Assembly: GCA_016875995.1 (NCBI GenBank)
Contig: VGOG01000006.1
Coordinates: 1-45,990 of the forward strand
From: Chloroflexota bacterium
GTDB lineage: Bacteria > Chloroflexota > Anaerolineae > VGOG01
Direction of reading: 5' to 3'
DNA: 45,990 nucleotides
The translations under genes were made by a program, and so were the position numbers. Below are positions 32,353-42,737 of this stretch, piece after piece. How positions within the stretch are numbered: the first letter of the stretch is position 1; each line of letters begins with the position of its first letter. The notes beneath the pieces are model-generated. The model searched no databases. It was not told the origin of the DNA and saw only the letters and a list, made by a program, of their open reading frames with translations.

Positions 32353-33744
32353 ATGAACGATAGACTGCATCAGTTCGCCAGCAGTTTCATAGAAAGCACC
32401 CGTGACTACATATTTGTCCGTCCGGAGGACAATCTGCTCATCCTGCGGCCCAACCGGGTGCACCACCTGAACGCCACGGCCACGGTGATGCTCAAGGCCC
32501 TCTACGACCGCCAGCCGCTGGACGTCGAGGCCATCGTAGCCGAACTGGCCGACCGCTACGACGTGCCCCCGGAGCGCATCGAGGAAGACATGGAGAAGCT
32601 GCTCCAGAGCCTCTCGCTCCTGCTCCAGGATAAGGTCGGTTGCGCTCCAGCGGTGAAGATCACTCCCTTCGGCAGCCACGAGAGGAAATACCCCGTCCTG
32701 TCCGAGATCGCCCTCACCTACCGTTGCCAGAACCGCTGTTTCTTCTGCTACGCCAGCTCCCCCGACCGAGGCCGCCAGGTGCCAGAGATGGCCACCGACC
32801 AGGTCAGGCTGGTGCTGGATAAGATCGTGCACCAGGCCAGGGTACCCACCGTCTCTTTCACCGGCGGCGAGCCCACCCTCCGCGACGACCTGCCAGAGCT
32901 GATCGCCCACGCCAAGGGACTGGGAATGAGGGTCAATCTGATCAGCAACGGCATCAGGTGCGCCGATGCCAGTTACGTGGCCAGATTGACCGAGGCGGGG
33001 CTGGACTCGGCCCAGATCAGCCTGGAGGCGGGAGAGGCCATCGTCCACGATGAAGTGGTGGCCCACCCGGGAGCCTTCGAGCGCACGGTGCAGGGAGTGC
33101 GCAACCTGCGGGCGGCGGGCATCCACACCCACACCAACACCACCATCAACCACCAGAACCAGCAGGCCCTGCCCGCCCTCATTGACTTCCTGGCCGAGAT
33201 GGGCATGGAGTACCTCTCCATGAACATGGTCATCCGCACCGGCGGGGCGGTAGGCGTGCCCGACGTCAATTATCGGGCCATCGGCGACCTGGCGCTGTCC
33301 CTCAAAGCCAGGGCGGAAGAGCGGGGGATGCGCTTCGTCTGGTACTCGCCCGTGCCCTACTGCCTGTTCAACCCCGCCCAGCACGGTCTGGGCTCGCAGT
33401 CGTGCTCGGCGGCCGATGGCCTGCTGTCCATCGCCCCCGACGGGGCAGTGTTGCCCTGCTCCAGCTTCGAGGAGGGCATCGGCAACCTGCTCACCGAGGA
33501 TTTCGCCACCCTCTGGAATCGGCGGACGGCTCGCTACTGGAGAAACAAGGAATTTCTGCCCCCCGGTTGCCAGGAGTGCGAGCTGGCCCACCTCTGCTGC
33601 GGGGCCTGCCCCCTCTACTGGGATGAGCAGGGCACCTTCGCCGAGATAGCTCCCTACATGGCCAGGACCTCGGTTTGGGAGCGACTGACCTGGAACTGGA
33701 AAAGGCGGTACCTGGGAAGGGTCAAAGGGGTGGGGATGGGATAG
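32353..33744 (+). CDS. PqqD-like/radical SAM/SPASM protein
   Basis: 463 aa. Residues about 10-95 resemble a PqqD/RRE-type peptide-binding domain (YIFVRPEDNLLILRPNRVHHLNATATVMLKALYD...VDAxx-like IVAELADRYDVPPERIEEDMEKLLQSL). The radical SAM core has C125-x3-C129-x2-C132 (CQNRCFFC), SFTGGEPTLRDDL and LISNGI. The C-terminal SPASM region has Cys in CSAADGLLSIAPDGAVLPCSSF and CQECELAHLCCGACPLYW, for auxiliary iron-sulfur clusters. Such proteins usually modify ribosomally made peptides or small proteins, sometimes haem or quinone precursors. No precursor peptide is adjacent. The stop TAG is inside a heptamer array. Confidence 0.92.
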   Translation: MNDRLHQFASSFIESTRDYIFVRPEDNLLILRPNRVHHLNATATVMLKALYDRQPLDVEAIVAELADRYDVPPERIEEDMEKLLQSLSLLLQDKVGCAPAVKITPFGSHERKYPVLSEIALTYRCQNRCFFCYASSPDRGRQVPEMATDQVRLVLDKIVHQARVPTVSFTGGEPTLRDDLPELIAHAKGLGMRVNLISNGIRCADASYVARLTEAGLDSAQISLEAGEAIVHDEVVAHPGAFERTVQGVRNLRAAGIHTHTNTTINHQNQQALPALIDFLAEMGMEYLSMNMVIRTGGAVGVPDVNYRAIGDLALSLKARAEERGMRFVWYSPVPYCLFNPAQHGLGSQSCSAADGLLSIAPDGAVLPCSSFEEGIGNLLTEDFATLWNRRTARYWRNKEFLPPGCQECELAHLCCGACPLYWDEQGTFAEIAPYMARTSVWERLTWNWKRRYLGRVKGVGMG

Positions 33745-35679: not shown

Positions 35680-38600
35680 ATGCCGGCTTTGAAAGTGTAC
35701 CTCTTTGGTTCTCCTGTCACCATCCGTGACGATGTTCCGCTCTCTATTACTTCCCAGAAAGCCCAGGCTCTATTCTACTACCTGATCTGCAATCGCCAGG
35801 CCCATTCCCGAGAGAAGCTGGCCACCCTGTTCTGGGGAGAGACCAGCGAACGTCAGGCCAAAGGTAGCCTGCGCAACACCCTCTACGAGTTGCGTCGCGA
35901 CCTGACACCAGGCAACGAGCCCGCCGAAGAATACATCCTGGCCGAAAGCAATACCCTCTGCTTTAACCCTGAGGCCGATTGCTGGCTGGACGTCGAGCAG
36001 TTCGAGAAGCTGCTAGACCAAAAAGCCGAGAGTGAACGAGCCAGGATGGACAACTGGAGCAAGGCGGTGGAGCTGTACCGGGGCGATTTCCTCGAGGGTT
36101 TCATCGTCAGAGATAGCTTCGAATTCGAGGACTGGGCCTTTTTCGAGCGGGAGAGGTTACAGAGAAGACACCTGGAGGCCCTTACCGAACTAAGCAATTA
36201 TTGTGGCAGGCAGGGCGAATACGAGAGAGCCATCGCCTACGCTATTAAGATACTCGGCCGCGATAGCCTTCAGGAAAACATCCACCGCCAACTGATGCGC
36301 CTGTACTACGCGGCTGGCAATCGCAGCGCTGCCCTGCGCCAGTACGAAATATGCCAGGAGGTCACAGAACGGGAATTAGGCGTCCCTCCCCTGGCCGAGA
36401 CCACGACCCTCTATGAGCAGATACTCCGCCAGGAATTGGTGGAACCCCCGGCCAGGGAGATGGAGGCACCGAGGAGAGAACCAGGCGTTGAACTCCAATG
36501 GCCACTTCGTCCATCACCGCTTCGCCCCTGGCCGAAGCCAGAGTATTTGAGCTCCAGCCTCGTCGGTAGAGACAAGGAATACGCCCAATTGACCCGCCAT
36601 CTGGAGGCCGCCAGCCAGGGAAAGGGGCAACTGGTCATCGTTGATGGTGAGGTCGGCGTTGGCAAGACCCGGTTGGTACAGGAGTTGCTCGATCGAGCAG
36701 AACCCGATTTTCACCTGCTGATAGGTCGGTGCTACGAGTCCGAGATGGCGTTGCCCTATCAGCCTGTGGTCGAGGCCCTGCGGGGTCTTCTGCCAACAGT
36801 AAATATGAACAGGCTTCAGATATCCAGCCTGTGGCTAAGGGAAGTAAGCAAGCTGGTCCCCGAACTGGGTGAGGCCCTGCCAGACCTCCCCAACAGCGTT
36901 CCCCTGAACACCGATACGGAACGCAGCCGCCTCTTTGAGGGAGTTGCTCAGTTTTTAGTTGCTCTCTCACGCCAACGGCCGCTGACGCTCTTTATTGACG
37001 ACCTCCACTGGGCCGATCAAGCCACCCTCACCCTTTTGCAATACCTGGCTCGTCACGTCACCAGGGAGAGGATACTGCTCATAGGGGCTTATCGCGCTGA
37101 AGATTTGAATGATTTGCTGACAAATACCATGCGCAGCCTCAATCAAGACGGGCTTCTTTCGCGGATCACCCTGCGTCGCCTCACCCTGGAAGAGGTGATC
37201 ACCCTGATCAGAGAGATGGCGGGAATGGAAAGCGGGGGCGAGAGATTCAGTCGCCGACTATATCAAGAGACGGAGGGCAACCCCTTCTTTATCTTCGAGG
37301 TCATTCGCTCCCTCTTCGAGCAAGGCATTCTATATCGAGACGAGCATGGCTGGAGCACAGACCTCAAGGATTTCGCCACCAATTACGCCCAGGTACCGAT
37401 TCCCCCCAGTGTGCGCGACGTCATCCAAGTCCGCCTCAATCGTTTGGACGAGACAAGTCGCCAGGTACTGGAGACAGCCGCGGTTTTTCGCCAGCAGTTC
37501 TACTTTGACACCATCAAGAGGACCTGCGACAAAAGCGAGGACGAGATCCTTGATGCCTTCGACAGGTTGCTGCGTGCCCAGTTGATCAAAGAGGTCGAAG
37601 TGGGCATGGAGGGCAGCAGCTATGACTTCAACCACGACAAGATCAGGGAAGTGGCCTATCAGCAAATGAGCGGAGCCAGGCGGCAGCAAGTGCATCGGCG
37701 AGTGGGCGAAGCCTTGGAGATAGAATATCGCCATCGCCTCGACGAGGGGGTCAGCCAATTGGCCTATCACTTCGTAGCGGGAGGGGATAGGGAGAAAGCT
37801 CTGAGATATTCTATCAAGGCTGGTGACAGGGCCAGAGAACTCTATGCCAATGAGGAGGCCATCGTTTATTATCAGCGAGCGATAGAACTCGCGGAGAGCG
37901 AGGAGGAGCTGGCCACCATCTACGAAGGCCTGGGCGATGTTTACGCCCTGGTAGGAAAACATCAGAAAGCCATAGAAAGCTACAAATCGGTGCTGGACAG
38001 CGCAGGTGAAGGGTTGGACAAAAGACGGGTGGCCGAGATTCATCGTAAAATAGGCAGGGTATATGAGAGGAACGGGGGGCGTGATCTGGCCCTGGAGCAT
38101 TTTAGAACTGGCCGGAGGATCCTTGAATCCGATGGCCCCTCACTAGAGATGGTCAGGCTGGATAGTGGCATGGCGTTTTTGAATATTCGTCAGGGTCAAT
38201 ATGAGGAGGCCATCAGACTCTGCCAACGAAGCCTGGATATGTTAGAGACCCTGCCTGATAACGTGGCCAGCCGAAAGGAGAGGGCCAGGATATATAATAA
38301 CCTGGGATCTATTTACCTTAATTGGAACGACTATCCCCGCGCCACCGAGCATTTCGAGAAGAGCCTGGCCATAAGAATCGAAAATGAGGACACGCACGGC
38401 ATCGCCGTTCTTTACAACAACCTTGGGGTGGTCTATGAGCGTCAGGGCCACTACGACCAGGCTTTTGAATACCATCGCCAAAGCTTCGAACTGGAGAAAG
38501 AAATAGGGGACATCTATGGCCTGGCCATATCCCACACCAATCTGGGGCTGATTCTCTCCCACAGAGAAGATCACTCTCAGGCCATTGATCACCTGGAAGA

Positions 38601-39039
38601 AGCGGTGAGTATTTGTGGGAACATCAAGTGCGAATGGCTTTTGCCCGAAGCCTACAGGATCATGGCCGAGATTCGCCTGGCCCTGGGCGAAGTAACAGAA
38701 GCCCTGGAGTTCGGCCAGGCTTCTCTGGAAATGGCCCTCAAGACTGGCGACACGGTGTTCGAAGGAGTGGCGCACCGGGTGCTGGGAAAAGTCAAGGCCC
38801 TGGGGCAGCAGCAGTGGGAAGAAGGAGAAAGTCATTTCTCAAAGAGCATAGATATATTGAAGGCCCTGGGAAACGAACATGAGCTCGGCAAGAGCTACTA
38901 CGAATTTGGACTGGTGTTGAGAGACAGGGGAGAGGTAGCCCGGGCCCAGCAATGCCTCTCCCAGGCCATCGAAATCTTCGAAAGAACAGGAGCCCCCGAG
39001 AGACTCGAAAGAGCCAAAACAGCGTACCATCAGCTTTGA
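35680..39039 (+). CDS. SARP-type regulator: winged helix, BTAD, AAA+ ATPase and TPR domains
   Basis: 1119 aa from ATG 35680 (GAGGAGGG upstream). Order: OmpR-like winged helix (about 1-90: [37 protein letters not shown]), BTAD domain (about 95-245: DVEQFEKLLD, AVELYRGDFLEGF, RQLMRLYYAAGNRSAALRQYE), and STAND-type AAA+ ATPase (about 290-640; Walker A GEVGVGKTR near 323, Walker B LFIDDLHWAD near 437). A long TPR array follows (about 700-1115, e.g. ARIYNNLGSIYLNWNDYPRATEHFEKSL, VLYNNLGVVYERQGHYDQAFEYHRQSF). This is the AfsR/SARP plan: signal or partner binding by the TPRs, ATP-driven switching, DNA binding at direct repeats. Such repeats occur 75 bp downstream of its stop, so it likely controls the secreted-protein genes that follow. 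Confidence 0.95.
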   Translation: MPALKVYLFGSPVTIRDDVPLSITSQKAQALFYYLICNRQAHSREKLATLFWGETSERQAKGSLRNTLYELRRDLTPGNEPAEEYILAESNTLCFNPEADCWLDVEQFEKLLDQKAESERARMDNWSKAVELYRGDFLEGFIVRDSFEFEDWAFFERERLQRRHLEALTELSNYCGRQGEYERAIAYAIKILGRDSLQENIHRQLMRLYYAAGNRSAALRQYEICQEVTERELGVPPLAETTTLYEQILRQELVEPPAREMEAPRREPGVELQWPLRPSPLRPWPKPEYLSSSLVGRDKEYAQLTRHLEAASQGKGQLVIVDGEVGVGKTRLVQELLDRAEPDFHLLIGRCYESEMALPYQPVVEALRGLLPTVNMNRLQISSLWLREVSKLVPELGEALPDLPNSVPLNTDTERSRLFEGVAQFLVALSRQRPLTLFIDDLHWADQATLTLLQYLARHVTRERILLIGAYRAEDLNDLLTNTMRSLNQDGLLSRITLRRLTLEEVITLIREMAGMESGGERFSRRLYQETEGNPFFIFEVIRSLFEQGILYRDEHGWSTDLKDFATNYAQVPIPPSVRDVIQVRLNRLDETSRQVLETAAVFRQQFYFDTIKRTCDKSEDEILDAFDRLLRAQLIKEVEVGMEGSSYDFNHDKIREVAYQQMSGARRQQVHRRVGEALEIEYRHRLDEGVSQLAYHFVAGGDREKALRYSIKAGDRARELYANEEAIVYYQRAIELAESEEELATIYEGLGDVYALVGKHQKAIESYKSVLDSAGEGLDKRRVAEIHRKIGRVYERNGGRDLALEHFRTGRRILESDGPSLEMVRLDSGMAFLNIRQGQYEEAIRLCQRSLDMLETLPDNVASRKERARIYNNLGSIYLNWNDYPRATEHFEKSLAIRIENEDTHGIAVLYNNLGVVYERQGHYDQAFEYHRQSFELEKEIGDIYGLAISHTNLGLILSHREDHSQAIDHLEEAVSICGNIKCEWLLPEAYRIMAEIRLALGEVTEALEFGQASLEMALKTGDTVFEGVAHRVLGKVKALGQQQWEEGESHFSKSIDILKALGNEHELGKSYYEFGLVLRDRGEVARAQQCLSQAIEIFERTGAPERLERAKTAYHQL

Positions 39040-39092
39040 TTGCCTCCTCATAATCCTCAAATCTTTCCCCCCTCACAAAAACCCGGAAAACT

Positions 39093-39167
39093 CTGACGGA
39101 TCCTTAAGCGATCTTGACGTTTTACTGACGCTGCGCTAACGGAAAATTGACGCCTATTTGGTATACT
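39093..39167 (+). promoter_or_regulatory. Candidate SARP operator and activator-dependent promoter
   Basis: Hexamers TTGACG (39114), CTGACG (39125), CTAACG (39136) and TTGACG (39147) start exactly 11 bp apart; CTTAAG at 39103 may be a degenerate fifth in phase. A further CTGACG at 39093 is one base out of phase. The last repeat ends 9 bp before a -10 box TATACT (39162-39167). There is no normal -35 at 17 bp (ACGGAA). SARP proteins are known to bind direct repeats one helical turn apart close to the -10. Confidence 0.8.
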
Positions 39168-39194
39168 GCTGTTGAAAGTTAACAGCAGTTTTTT
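39165..39194 (+). terminator. Intrinsic terminator overlapping the operator promoter
   Basis: ACTGCTGTT, 7-nt loop, AACAGCAGT, then TTTTT. Its left arm overlaps the -10 box, and a transcript from that promoter would start near 39174, inside the loop. It therefore stops transcripts coming from the regulator gene but would not form fully in the new transcript. Confidence 0.8.
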
Positions 39195-39219
39195 ATTTGC
39201 TGTAGAAAGGAGAGAAAGT

Positions 39220-39438
39220 ATGTCGCTTCAGCAACGAAGGTATGTGTCCTTCTTCATCCGCATCTGGGAAGAGCCGCGGGAGATGGAGGACGAAAATCCT
39301 GAGTGGCGCGGCAGTGTCGAAAACGTCCAAACAGGGCAGAAGAATTACTTCATGGGTATGGAGAATCTGGTTAGTTTTATCCGTGAACAGTGTAACGGGT
39401 TTGGCATCTCCTGGAACAAAAGGAAATACATCGCCTGA
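39220..39438 (+). CDS. 72-aa protein of unknown function, first gene of the SARP-linked unit
   Basis: ATG 39220 follows AAAGGAGAG. The sequence has an N-terminal strand pattern RYVSFFIRIWEEP, an acidic stretch REMEDENPEWRGSVENVQTGQ, then FMGMENLVSFIREQC. The pattern (F-I-R-I-W-E-E-P, then W-R-G-x-V-E-x-V-x-x-G, then L-x-x-F-I) recalls small uncharacterised Chloroflexota proteins I have seen next to regulators, but I cannot name a family. No signal peptide. It lies 46 nt downstream of the predicted transcription start and 45 bp before the repeat protein, so it is probably co-transcribed. Confidence 0.78.
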   Translation: MSLQQRRYVSFFIRIWEEPREMEDENPEWRGSVENVQTGQKNYFMGMENLVSFIREQCNGFGISWNKRKYIA

Positions 39439-39483
39439 GATCAGAGAGGTGCCAAGTCCAGGCCATTCACAAAAAAGGAGGCA

Positions 39484-39897
39484 ATGAAAATGAAAATGAA
39501 AAGAACTCTGTGGTGCATCTTCAGTCTGGCGCTGATCCTCGGCCTCTTGCTAAGCCTCAATATGGCCGAGAGCCTGGCATCGTTCAAGAACGTCGGGATA
39601 ATCAAAGGTGATCTCGCTCCCGAAAACGCGGGGATCATCAAGGGCGACTTCGCCCCAAGCGCGGGGATCATCAAGGGCGACTTCGCCCCAAGCGCGGGGA
39701 TCATCAAGGGCGACTTCGCCCCAAGCGCGGGGATCATCAAGGGCGACTTTGCCCCAAGTGCGGGGATCATCAAGGGCGACTTTGCCCCAAGCGCGGGGAT
39801 CATCAAGGGCGACTTCGCCCCAAGTGCGGGGATCATCAAGGGCGACTTTGCCCCAAGCGCGGGGATCATCAAGGGCGACCTGGCGCCCTCCGCTTAG
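39484..39897 (+). CDS. Secreted tandem-repeat protein, nine GIIKGD-type 11-residue units
   Basis: 137 aa. A signal peptide (RTLWCIFSLALILGLLLSLNMAESLA) is followed by SFKN and nine units: VGIIKGDLAPEN, seven AGIIKGDFAPS, and AGIIKGDLAPSA to the end. The whole mature protein is repeat. AAAGGAGG ends 2 nt before ATG 39484, so ATG 39490 or 39496 may be the true start. The units are identical in protein and almost identical in DNA (only Asp-Phe TTC/TTT and Ser AGC/AGT changes), pointing to recent expansion. I recognise no family: not RTX, pentapeptide or collagen-like. Options are a surface or matrix protein, an amyloid-like beta protein, or a multi-core peptide precursor. All are guesses. Confidence 0.85.
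   Translation: MKMKMKRTLWCIFSLALILGLLLSLNMAESLASFKNVGIIKGDLAPENAGIIKGDFAPSAGIIKGDFAPSAGIIKGDFAPSAGIIKGDFAPSAGIIKGDFAPSAGIIKGDFAPSAGIIKGDFAPSAGIIKGDLAPSA
39595..39894 (+). repeat. 33-bp tandem coding repeat
   Basis: Eight copies of a 33-bp unit (GGGATCATCAAGGGCGACTT and onward) start at 39629 and every 33 bp to 39860, preceded by a diverged copy at 39595. There are no spacers, so it is not CRISPR. Confidence 0.95.
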
Positions 39898-40019: not shown

Positions 40020-42737
40020 ATGAAGAAGAAGTTTTGGACGATATTGGGCCTGGCATTGGGAACATTGGTGCTGGGAGTGGTAGTAGGATTGATGACCGTC
40101 GGCACAGTGGCAGCCGACCCGACGCCCGGAGTGAAGATCCAGATTCCTCGCATAGATGTAGGAGACGTGCTGGGAACTGGTCGCTGGGAGACCTGGATTC
40201 ATGTGCAGAATGTGAGCCATGATGTGGACACCGGGGCGATCTTCTTAGGGTGGGGAGAATACTCTGGACTTTGTCCTACCAACGATCCAGGGATTATCGT
40301 CCACTACTGCCAGTTGATTCGCGGAAATGCTGTCTGGACCCTGAGATCCCAGCTCATCAACGATAAAATCAAGTCGGGCATCATCTACTCGGTCAAAGCG
40401 GAGGCGTTCCAGGAAGCATGCGCGACTTCAGCCTTGACCGAGGGTAATACCAACATGTGGAGAGAATGGTTGAAAGAGCTGAAGTTTGGCACGGGCATGG
40501 ACATTACAAAGAGCCCGCCTGTCCCGATGACATGGGGGCCAGCCGAAGGAGAGAAATTAGCTGTTACGGTGACCCGCTACGGTCCCAATGACTACGGCAC
40601 CTTTGTCTCCAGCACCTATACCGGCATCTCCGAGGAGATGGAGGGGGAGGATCACCCGTACGAGTACTATGCTCCCTACATCATGAAGGGCTACAACGGA
40701 CTGGACACGGAGATGACCATCCAGAACTCGGGCGAGATGTGTACCTCGGTGTGGATAAACTACATGGAGCAAGGAAGCTGTAGAATCGTCTATAAGTACC
40801 ACGTCGAGCAGTTAGCCCCAGGTGAGGCCGTACGGCTGAAGGTGCCGTGTAATGTAGGTCAGATTCCATGTAATTGGCTGGGATCGGCCCACATCGCGGC
40901 TAAGATGCCCCTGCGCATCATCATTGACCAAACGAGCTTCGACGAACCTTGCGTCGGCGTGGATCGGGGTACGCTGCTGACCCATCGCGCTCGGCCCAAA
41001 AAGGAGCTCAGAGATGGAGTAGAAATCGAGGACAGGCTCGTCTACGCCGACCTCATCTTCCGCGAGTGGAGCGGCTGGGATGCCAGCATCCAGGTGCAGA
41101 ACCTGAGCCGCACTGGCCAAAACACCTTCGTGACCGTAGACTTCATGGACAACAGCGGCGACGAGATCCTCTTCCTCGCTGACTGGATCTGCCCCGGAGG
41201 TTCTGCCACATTCTATCTGCCCATAGTCAATAACCTCGGCTTCGACTACGTAGGGGCAGCCGAGATCCAATCGCACGAGCAAGTAAGCTACCCAGGTGGT
41301 AAAGTGCCTGGCCAGCCCATCTTCGCCGTGGTAGACCTGAAGAAGCCAGATGACCCTCGCACACCGGAGCTGGACGCTCAAGGGGGAAGCTACAACGCCC
41401 ATCCATACTCCCAGAAGGAGTGGGTAAGCGAGATCGCCCTTCCCTTCGTGACCAAAGACGCTGGTAACCTGTACACCCCGTGGACCTCGTTGATTGCCAT
41501 CCGCAACAACTCCAATTGCAACAAGATCAAGACCATGATCTGGTTTAAAGACGAGACTGGGCGGAATGTTTGTGAGCTCCCTGTATCCTGGCTCCATCCA
41601 AAGCACGTCAAGCTGATTGACCTTAACAACGTCGGCTGCCTGTACCCCGGCTACGTTGGCTCAGCCAAGGTGATCGTCACAGAGGTAGAGCAACTCTGTG
41701 ACAAAGACAACGATGGCCACGCCGACAACTTGCCCTTCATGCCTTCCGTGATAGTGGTAGCGAAGGGCCTCCCCTTCGGCGGTGATGTCACCAGCATCTA
41801 CGAAGGCATCCCGTACTCAACAGGGGATAAGCACTGCGACGCCGACCTGTTGGGTCAGGTCATAGACGATAACACGTATCTACCCCTCCAGGGAGTCACG
41901 GTGACTGTTCCAGGCGGCAAGTACATCGCAGCGACCGGAACGTATGTGGATGCTACAGGTACGACCGGTCGTGGAGGCATGTACGAAATCAAGGGCATCG
42001 TCACCTTTGGAACCCTCGAGCCTGAGCCTGGGACCTGCTACACGGTTACAGCGTCGAAGAACGGCTACTTGAGCTCCATCGTCCCAGATGTGTGTCTGCA
42101 CTGCGGCGAGGACAAGGTGCTCGACTTCTCCCTGATCTGCAACACCAATACCATCACCGGCACGGTTAAGCAGTACGTCACACCTGAGAATAGCGGCCCT
42201 CCGATCGCAGGCGCTACCGTTACCGCCACGTGGGACCCGCACCCCGGCACCGACGACGACGGGGTCGAGAAGACCACTACGAATGCCCAGGGCTACTATG
42301 AGCTCAAGGGCCTGCCCAAGGAGGTGGAGATCACTGTCACCATTGAGCAGGACGGTTACGATAGCGAGTCCAATAAGCACACGTTCCTGCTTGCCACCTG
42401 CAACGAAAAGAGGGAGTTCAGCCCTATCTTAAATTGCTACGCTGAGGTACGGGGCGTGGTCTGGTTTGACCTCAACAGTAACGGTCAATGGGATTGTGGC
42501 GAGCCGTTGCTGCAGGGGCAGAAGGTGCACCTCTTCACCGATGGCAAAACAAAGTTCCTGGGATCCGCCACGACCGACGAGTATGGCCGGTACAAGTTCA
42601 ACGTCGGCAAGGATCTCTTCGATCCCGGCGACTTCAATTGGGGCGACGATCTCGATGTGGTGATCGGAACCACAGTAAAGGATATGGCTGCTATCTGGCC
42701 TTGCACGGTCAACGTGGTCAACTTCCCGCTGAAGTAG
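40020..42737 (+). CDS. Large secreted beta-sandwich protein with Cna-B/carboxypeptidase-regulatory-like domains
   Basis: 905 aa; AAAAGGAGG precedes the ATG. Signal peptide FWTILGLALGTLVLGVVVGLMTVGTVAA. The N-terminal 590 residues contain a recurring motif, roughly W-x-x-x-I-x-V-Q-N-x-S: TWIHVQNVS near 55, TEMTIQNSG near 228, ASIQVQNLS near 355, SLIAIRNNS near 490. Three carboxypeptidase-regulatory/SdrD-B-like domains follow near 610 (LLGQVIDDNTYLPLQGVTVTVPGG), 712 (GTVKQY, IAGATVTATWD) and 810 (RGVVWFDLNSNGQWDCGEPLLQGQKV). Cysteine-rich for a secreted protein; no C-terminal anchor seen. Probably extracellular and structural or adhesive. It is the last gene of the SARP-linked unit and is followed by a terminator. 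Confidence 0.9.
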   Translation: MKKKFWTILGLALGTLVLGVVVGLMTVGTVAADPTPGVKIQIPRIDVGDVLGTGRWETWIHVQNVSHDVDTGAIFLGWGEYSGLCPTNDPGIIVHYCQLIRGNAVWTLRSQLINDKIKSGIIYSVKAEAFQEACATSALTEGNTNMWREWLKELKFGTGMDITKSPPVPMTWGPAEGEKLAVTVTRYGPNDYGTFVSSTYTGISEEMEGEDHPYEYYAPYIMKGYNGLDTEMTIQNSGEMCTSVWINYMEQGSCRIVYKYHVEQLAPGEAVRLKVPCNVGQIPCNWLGSAHIAAKMPLRIIIDQTSFDEPCVGVDRGTLLTHRARPKKELRDGVEIEDRLVYADLIFREWSGWDASIQVQNLSRTGQNTFVTVDFMDNSGDEILFLADWICPGGSATFYLPIVNNLGFDYVGAAEIQSHEQVSYPGGKVPGQPIFAVVDLKKPDDPRTPELDAQGGSYNAHPYSQKEWVSEIALPFVTKDAGNLYTPWTSLIAIRNNSNCNKIKTMIWFKDETGRNVCELPVSWLHPKHVKLIDLNNVGCLYPGYVGSAKVIVTEVEQLCDKDNDGHADNLPFMPSVIVVAKGLPFGGDVTSIYEGIPYSTGDKHCDADLLGQVIDDNTYLPLQGVTVTVPGGKYIAATGTYVDATGTTGRGGMYEIKGIVTFGTLEPEPGTCYTVTASKNGYLSSIVPDVCLHCGEDKVLDFSLICNTNTITGTVKQYVTPENSGPPIAGATVTATWDPHPGTDDDGVEKTTTNAQGYYELKGLPKEVEITVTIEQDGYDSESNKHTFLLATCNEKREFSPILNCYAEVRGVVWFDLNSNGQWDCGEPLLQGQKVHLFTDGKTKFLGSATTDEYGRYKFNVGKDLFDPGDFNWGDDLDVVIGTTVKDMAAIWPCTVNVVNFPLK

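Follow-up and report, generated by a model that had tools for sequence, protein, structure and literature searches.

Direct repeats at 11-bp spacing beside a large AfsR-like regulator gene in Chloroflexota: a predicted SARP-type operator and a recurring gene cassette

Short direct repeats in front of a lone promoter element raise the question of which protein reads them and which genes are controlled. The repeats considered here lie in a window of 45,990 nucleotides (the whole stretch of DNA analysed, contig VGOG01000006.1 of a Chloroflexota bacterium), downstream of a gene of the SARP type. SARPs are known antibiotic activators of actinomycetes. The original prediction regarded the repeats as a SARP-type operator, and its basic observations were reproduced: four hexamers starting at 39114, 39125, 39136 and 39147 follow each other in exact 11-bp steps, the last one ends 9 bp before a -10 element, and a sigma-70 scan of positions 38700–39600 found no -35/-10 pair, in agreement with the claimed absence of a usable -35. 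The fifth unit suspected at 39103 is in phase, and its word recurs in the orthologous locus of a second genus (G002), but this word is degenerate. The promoter region is composed of the following elements:

39093–39098, plus strand: possible distal unit CTGACG, 21 bp before unit 1 and one base out of register (ATGACG in G002)
39103–39108, plus strand: degenerate in-phase unit CTTAAG (identical in G002)
39114–39119, plus strand: operator unit 1, TTGACG (conserved in G002)
39125–39130, plus strand: operator unit 2, CTGACG (conserved in G002)
39136–39141, plus strand: operator unit 3, CTAACG (conserved in G002)
39147–39152, plus strand: operator unit 4, TTGACG (CTGATA in G002)
39162–39167, plus strand: -10 element TATACT without a usable -35 (unchanged in G002; the 9-bp gap is fixed across the small-protein family described below)

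The four units were defined by sequence and by comparison with shuffles; the three-unit YTRACG pattern has two matches in the window, and 100 dinucleotide shuffles gave none. Transcription is predicted to start at about 39174. According to the published rule for SARP promoters, the repeats are 11 or 22 bp apart and the 3′ repeat is located 8 bp from the -10 element (PMC10936776). The window conforms to both parts, the gap after the last unit being 9 bp when counted from the hexamer and 8 bp when counted from the heptamer TTGACGC, and the poor or absent -35 typical of such promoters is likewise found. The array may be longer than four units, perhaps up to six, because the second genus has retained the words at 39103 and 39093 almost intact.

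The orthologous locus of G002 retains units 1–3, the -10 element and a hairpin (see below), while the spacers differ from those of the window and the sequence further upstream has diverged. This conservation of hexamers amid drifting spacers is the footprint of a putatively selected operator. The adjacent regulator orthologue is 87% identical. A role of the repeats in repression or DNA curvature, or a non-regulatory short tandem repeat, is scarcely plausible in view of these data. Direct repeats can in general also serve repressors, but the gap to the -10 element is fixed, the -35 is missing, the hexamers are kept while the spacers drift, and the sequences differ between loci with preservation of the geometry; none of the tool results favoured another role over activation.

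The proposed reader of the repeats is encoded next to them and, as originally described, is a winged-helix/BTAD/AAA+/TPR protein with an ATG at 35680 and a stop at 39039, supported by the Pfam families BTAD, AAA_16 and TPR:

35680–39039, plus strand: large SARP-like regulator of 1119 aa, with a winged helix-turn-helix (wHTH) domain (residues 1–100), a BTAD domain (103–249), an AAA_16 ATPase domain (294–468) and a TPR array (about 720–1110)

The BTAD domain is matched by Pfam with an E-value of 1.7e-24 at residues 103–249, and profile searches with the wHTH-BTAD part recovered AfsR (E 2e-23) and EmbR (8e-21). An AlphaFold model of residues 1–253 (pLDDT 96) was most similar in Foldseek to AfsR in transcription initiation complexes (8k60/8hvr; TM 0.73–0.75, E about 1e-12), followed by EmbR (E about 1e-10). 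Pfam, profile and Foldseek data thus agree on an OmpR-like wHTH followed by BTAD, the arrangement defining SARPs, and the C-terminal ATPase and TPR families are those of the large, AfsR-like SARPs.

The predicted target unit begins 3′ of the repeats and comprises three genes:

39220–39438, plus strand: small protein of 72 aa, first gene of the unit, belonging to a family with the pattern YxSYLLRLW..WRASLE.P.TGER.GFA.L..L.AFL
39484–39897, plus strand: protein of 137 aa with a putative signal sequence and about nine AGIIKGD(F/L)APS repeats; an orthologue exists in G002
40020–42737, plus strand: protein of 905 aa with a putative signal sequence and CarboxypepD_reg and SdrD_B-like domains (Pfam); gene order shared with G002

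G002 keeps the gene order for the 905-aa protein, and its orthologue of the 137-aa protein has fewer and diverged repeats. Judged as a possible biosynthetic cluster, the targets resemble small and exported proteins, and a gene for a radical SAM/PqqD/SPASM protein is present at 32353–33744. The latter, located upstream of the regulator, is a possible peptide maturase. Speculatively, the AGIIKGDFAPS-repeat protein might be a multi-copy peptide precursor beside a TPR regulator. Downstream of another small gene (L170 in G277, plus strand, open reading frame from about 3318), the encoded protein contains repeated YHQSEWD words and appears to be membrane-anchored or secreted.

Related loci were collected by way of the 72-aa protein. 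A profile built from four small proteins detected the family in 162 of the 298 genomes of the class, and a larger profile in 46 of 301 genomes sampled across the phylum, other classes included. There was no usable match in Pfam or NCBIfam and none in the PDB, also when the model was used as query; the model itself indicates a beta-beta-beta-alpha arrangement at moderate confidence (pLDDT 81). About 120 small-gene loci were retrieved, and a BTAD gene was found within the retrieved stretch for 98 of 124 small genes. Orientation was scored for 49 loci, in 47 of which the closest BTAD gene is transcribed divergently; the two starts are separated by a median of 186 bp. The next gene downstream of the small gene carries a putative signal sequence in 96 of 125 cases, as called by a crude hydropathy criterion. 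These loci define a cassette of regulator, operator, small protein and exported protein, which is widespread in Chloroflexota. The window is an exception to the cassette order in that regulator and target share a strand, which is not the case in most of the family; its regulator also sits on a long branch. Between them a further element is found:

39165–39194, plus strand: terminator-like hairpin followed by a T run, with the 5′ arm overlapping the -10 element (z -3.5; the G002 copy is conserved with a longer loop)

This hairpin would form in transcripts that run through from the regulator gene and would terminate them. RNA started at about 39174 would lack the 5′ arm and would not be terminated. 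The hairpin might thus insulate the same-strand regulator from its target, as far as can be deduced from the sequence.

The upstream regions of these relatives were compared with the expectation that 11-bp-spaced YTRACG repeats are conserved, and this expectation was borne out in one half only. The 11-bp geometry beside a -10 element recurs upstream of the same small-protein family throughout the class and in other classes, but the word YTRACG is not conserved, and each locus has its own word. In a motif-blind test, in which the best three-unit repeat of six bases per upstream region was determined for periods 7–25 and compared with shuffles, 29 of 124 regions were significant (p<=0.02) at period 11, compared with 0–10 regions at every other period. 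When anchored on the -10 element, period 11 together with the 9-bp gap occurred in 27 of 123 regions, and other periods in 0–3. Replication on sixty new loci, including other classes, gave a weaker signal, with a score >=16 in 5 of 59 regions at period 11 and in 0–1 at the others. The 11-bp direct repeats expected in the target promoter of a SARP are found in the window and, as a period-11 signal, family-wide. A weaker excess was also seen at periods 7 and 14 in the repeat test of upstream regions (loci L129–L245). The words, among them CTGATA, CGGGCG, CTTGAG, TCGGTA, GACGAT, TTTTGA and many ending in ACG, vary at constant spacing. Because the word differs between loci, literal YTRACG is a poor probe in relatives, and a search of 60 of them retrieved it in 6 genomes. 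A search for the ACG core over 298 genomes found clearly more sites than a reversed control. A closer look at 30 of these sites placed a BTAD gene no more than 2 kb away in 10 and a small gene immediately downstream in 6; accordingly, some of the ACG-core sites probably arose by chance.

Within the 4.3-Mb source genome, the strict YTRACG pattern occurs at three places, namely in the window and on contigs C160 and C229. A search for two units plus a -10 element at operator spacing returned these three places again and nothing in the reversed control. The two sites other than the window lie away from any BTAD gene. The genome contains eight BTAD matches, of which two are genes on contig C14; each has just upstream, in divergent orientation, three (G/C)NRACG repeats and a TATACT at the same distance, before a small gene of the window's family.

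Both additional YTRACG sites have features of their own. At the C160 site (L020:9105-9295) only six bases separate the -10 element from an ATG, so that the mRNA may be leaderless; the open reading frame is cut by the contig end and may represent a transposase N-terminus. The C229 site (L021:2029-2150, minus strand) belongs to a putative conserved small RNA of about 75–80 nt, also found at L023:8292-8404 (minus strand) and L024:4294-4414 (plus strand). Three YTGACG repeats and TATAAT are followed by a stem, by a conserved ACCUCC that looks like an anti-Shine-Dalgarno sequence, and by a second, terminator-like stem. It is located downstream of a Mg-chelatase-like gene in three genera, and the flanks diverge. 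Rfam returned no family match at this locus.

The distribution of words bears directly on the alternative that the repeats form a PhoB/PhoP-type box bound by an OmpR-family response regulator. PhoB/PhoP boxes are direct repeats of about 11 bp near the -10 element, e.g. TTAACA-N5 of Bacillus PhoP. Regulators of the OmpR family share the wHTH fold and the one-turn repeat spacing, and YTRACG resembles a PhoP box. However, one global regulator should produce one word shared across its regulon including phosphate genes, but the words differ by locus, even within one genome, and mostly have as neighbours a BTAD gene and a member of a single small-gene family. Among the genes read, no phosphate gene accompanies any of the three two-unit sites of the genome, and the sites of the source genome lack recognisable phosphate neighbours. 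Moreover, the word tracks the recognition helix of the BTAD protein, as outlined in the following, and we consider a PhoB/PhoP-type box very unlikely.

The relationship between regulator and word is most apparent at residue 65 of the BTAD proteins, which is usually Arg and less often Ser. Among adjacent regulator–operator pairs, CG-N9-CG precedes the -10 element in 50 of 67 Arg loci and in none of 9 Ser loci, counts derived from the same data on which the rule was found; the units of Ser loci are mostly TGATA or TGAGR. With new loci, the numbers become 62 of 81 for Arg and 0 of 10 for Ser (Fisher p = 3e-6), the loci being not fully independent by descent. The residues of the new loci were read by eye from the recognition helix and include only one new adjacent Ser locus. 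Three loci (L137, L187 and L189) absent from the table in which the pattern first appeared also followed it. The 17 of 67 Arg loci that have an adjacent BTAD gene without a CG-N9-CG repeat may partly reflect missed promoters. On the tree, Ser at position 65 requires at least five changes and forms a single clade in 0 of 200 bootstraps, yet the strongly supported branches alone are compatible with one Ser origin. Column 15 is as strongly associated with the repeat type as column 65, and the co-variation between motif and whole domain is weak (Mantel p = 0.04), with the wHTH performing no better than BTAD. Residue 65 aligns with R87 in the recognition helix of AfsR, which in the cryo-EM structure touches backbone phosphates, not bases, and adjoins the base-reading T88. 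Residue 65 is the strongest protein–DNA link; its direct base-reading role is putative. The computed residue–operator association suggests that the operator word diverged together with the regulator's recognition helix and that the spacing did not.

This association also helps to weigh the alternative that the repeats are a SARP operator read not by the neighbour but by another BTAD regulator of the genome. The eight BTAD matches and the two YTRACG sites remote from any BTAD gene are in line with such an assignment, as is genome G001 (79% complete), which has the site but no wHTH match to the regulator among the matches listed. Nevertheless, adjacency is the rule across the class, the residue–operator association was obtained with the adjacent regulator, and the two C14 regulators adjoin a different word. 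We regard a reader elsewhere in the genome as unlikely.

In summary of these arguments, the interpretation of the repeats as a SARP-type operator beside a SARP-type gene is supported by the layout, which equals the published rule, by the match of the wHTH-BTAD part to AfsR and EmbR in sequence and predicted fold, and by the word following the recognition helix. We assign a probability of roughly 0.86 to the reading that the operator is bound by the adjacent AfsR-like regulator, which activates the -10-only promoter of the target unit. The estimate is built on geometry, conservation, adjacency, fold and the residue–operator association, all established by computation, from which we infer a scenario for binding, activation, operon and signal. 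Copies of the adjacent regulator would occupy neighbouring 11-bp direct repeats on the same side of the helix, each via its wHTH domain. They might take the place of sigma region 4 at the missing -35, contact RNA polymerase and recruit it to the lone -10 element. The promoter would then drive a unit consisting of the 72-aa protein, the AGIIKGD-repeat secreted protein and the 905-aa secreted protein, and the ATPase/TPR half might gate activation through a signal.

The closest known system is AfsR at the afsS promoter of Streptomyces coelicolor (PDB 8hvr, 8k60, 8jke; PMC10936776), which shares the wHTH-BTAD part followed by ATPase and TPR parts and, in the promoter, a poor -35 region overlapped by direct repeats at 11-bp spacing, with 8 bp between the 3′ repeat and the -10 element. 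The window differs by four (perhaps up to six) units instead of two, a different word, a target of small and exported proteins, its occurrence in Chloroflexota and an identity of about 24% over the domain. The PimR-type SARP-LAL regulators of Streptomyces are also large SARPs with an ATPase half and an 11-bp repeat period; the PimR operator consists of heptamers with 4-bp spacers, three units in the main operator and at least two needed for binding (PMC5930380). It lies upstream of the -35, whereas the operator of the window abuts the -10 element, and target and phylum differ. EmbR of Mycobacterium tuberculosis (PDB 2fez, 2ff4) shares the wHTH-BTAD fold and has a C-terminal FHA domain, not ATPase/TPR parts. 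PhoP/PhoB boxes also have direct repeats of about 11 bp near the -10 element, but their reader is a two-component regulator and each regulon has a single word. A search of the open-access literature found no work on SARPs of Chloroflexota, which leaves room for existing work. The SARP promoter architecture is already known; new are the setting in another phylum, the recurring undescribed cassette and the diversification of the operator word by locus.

As a tentative proposal, which we rate as possible rather than probable, the cassette might represent an undescribed signalling module of Chloroflexota, in which a large SARP with an operator word of its own has been duplicated and rewired, along with an exported protein and a small protein from a new family, by recognition-helix changes (Arg/Ser at 65), and in which the small protein or a peptide from the exported repeats feeds back on the ATPase/TPR half. 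The findings place a SARP architecture in another phylum, where it would drive small and exported proteins and where genomes frequently carry several paralogous copies of it. The cassette loci constitute a natural data set for the SARP protein–DNA code, i.e. for which residue reads which base, and may make it possible to predict, from sequence alone, what many uncharacterised BTAD regulators control. They also give initial access to a very common family of small proteins of unknown function.
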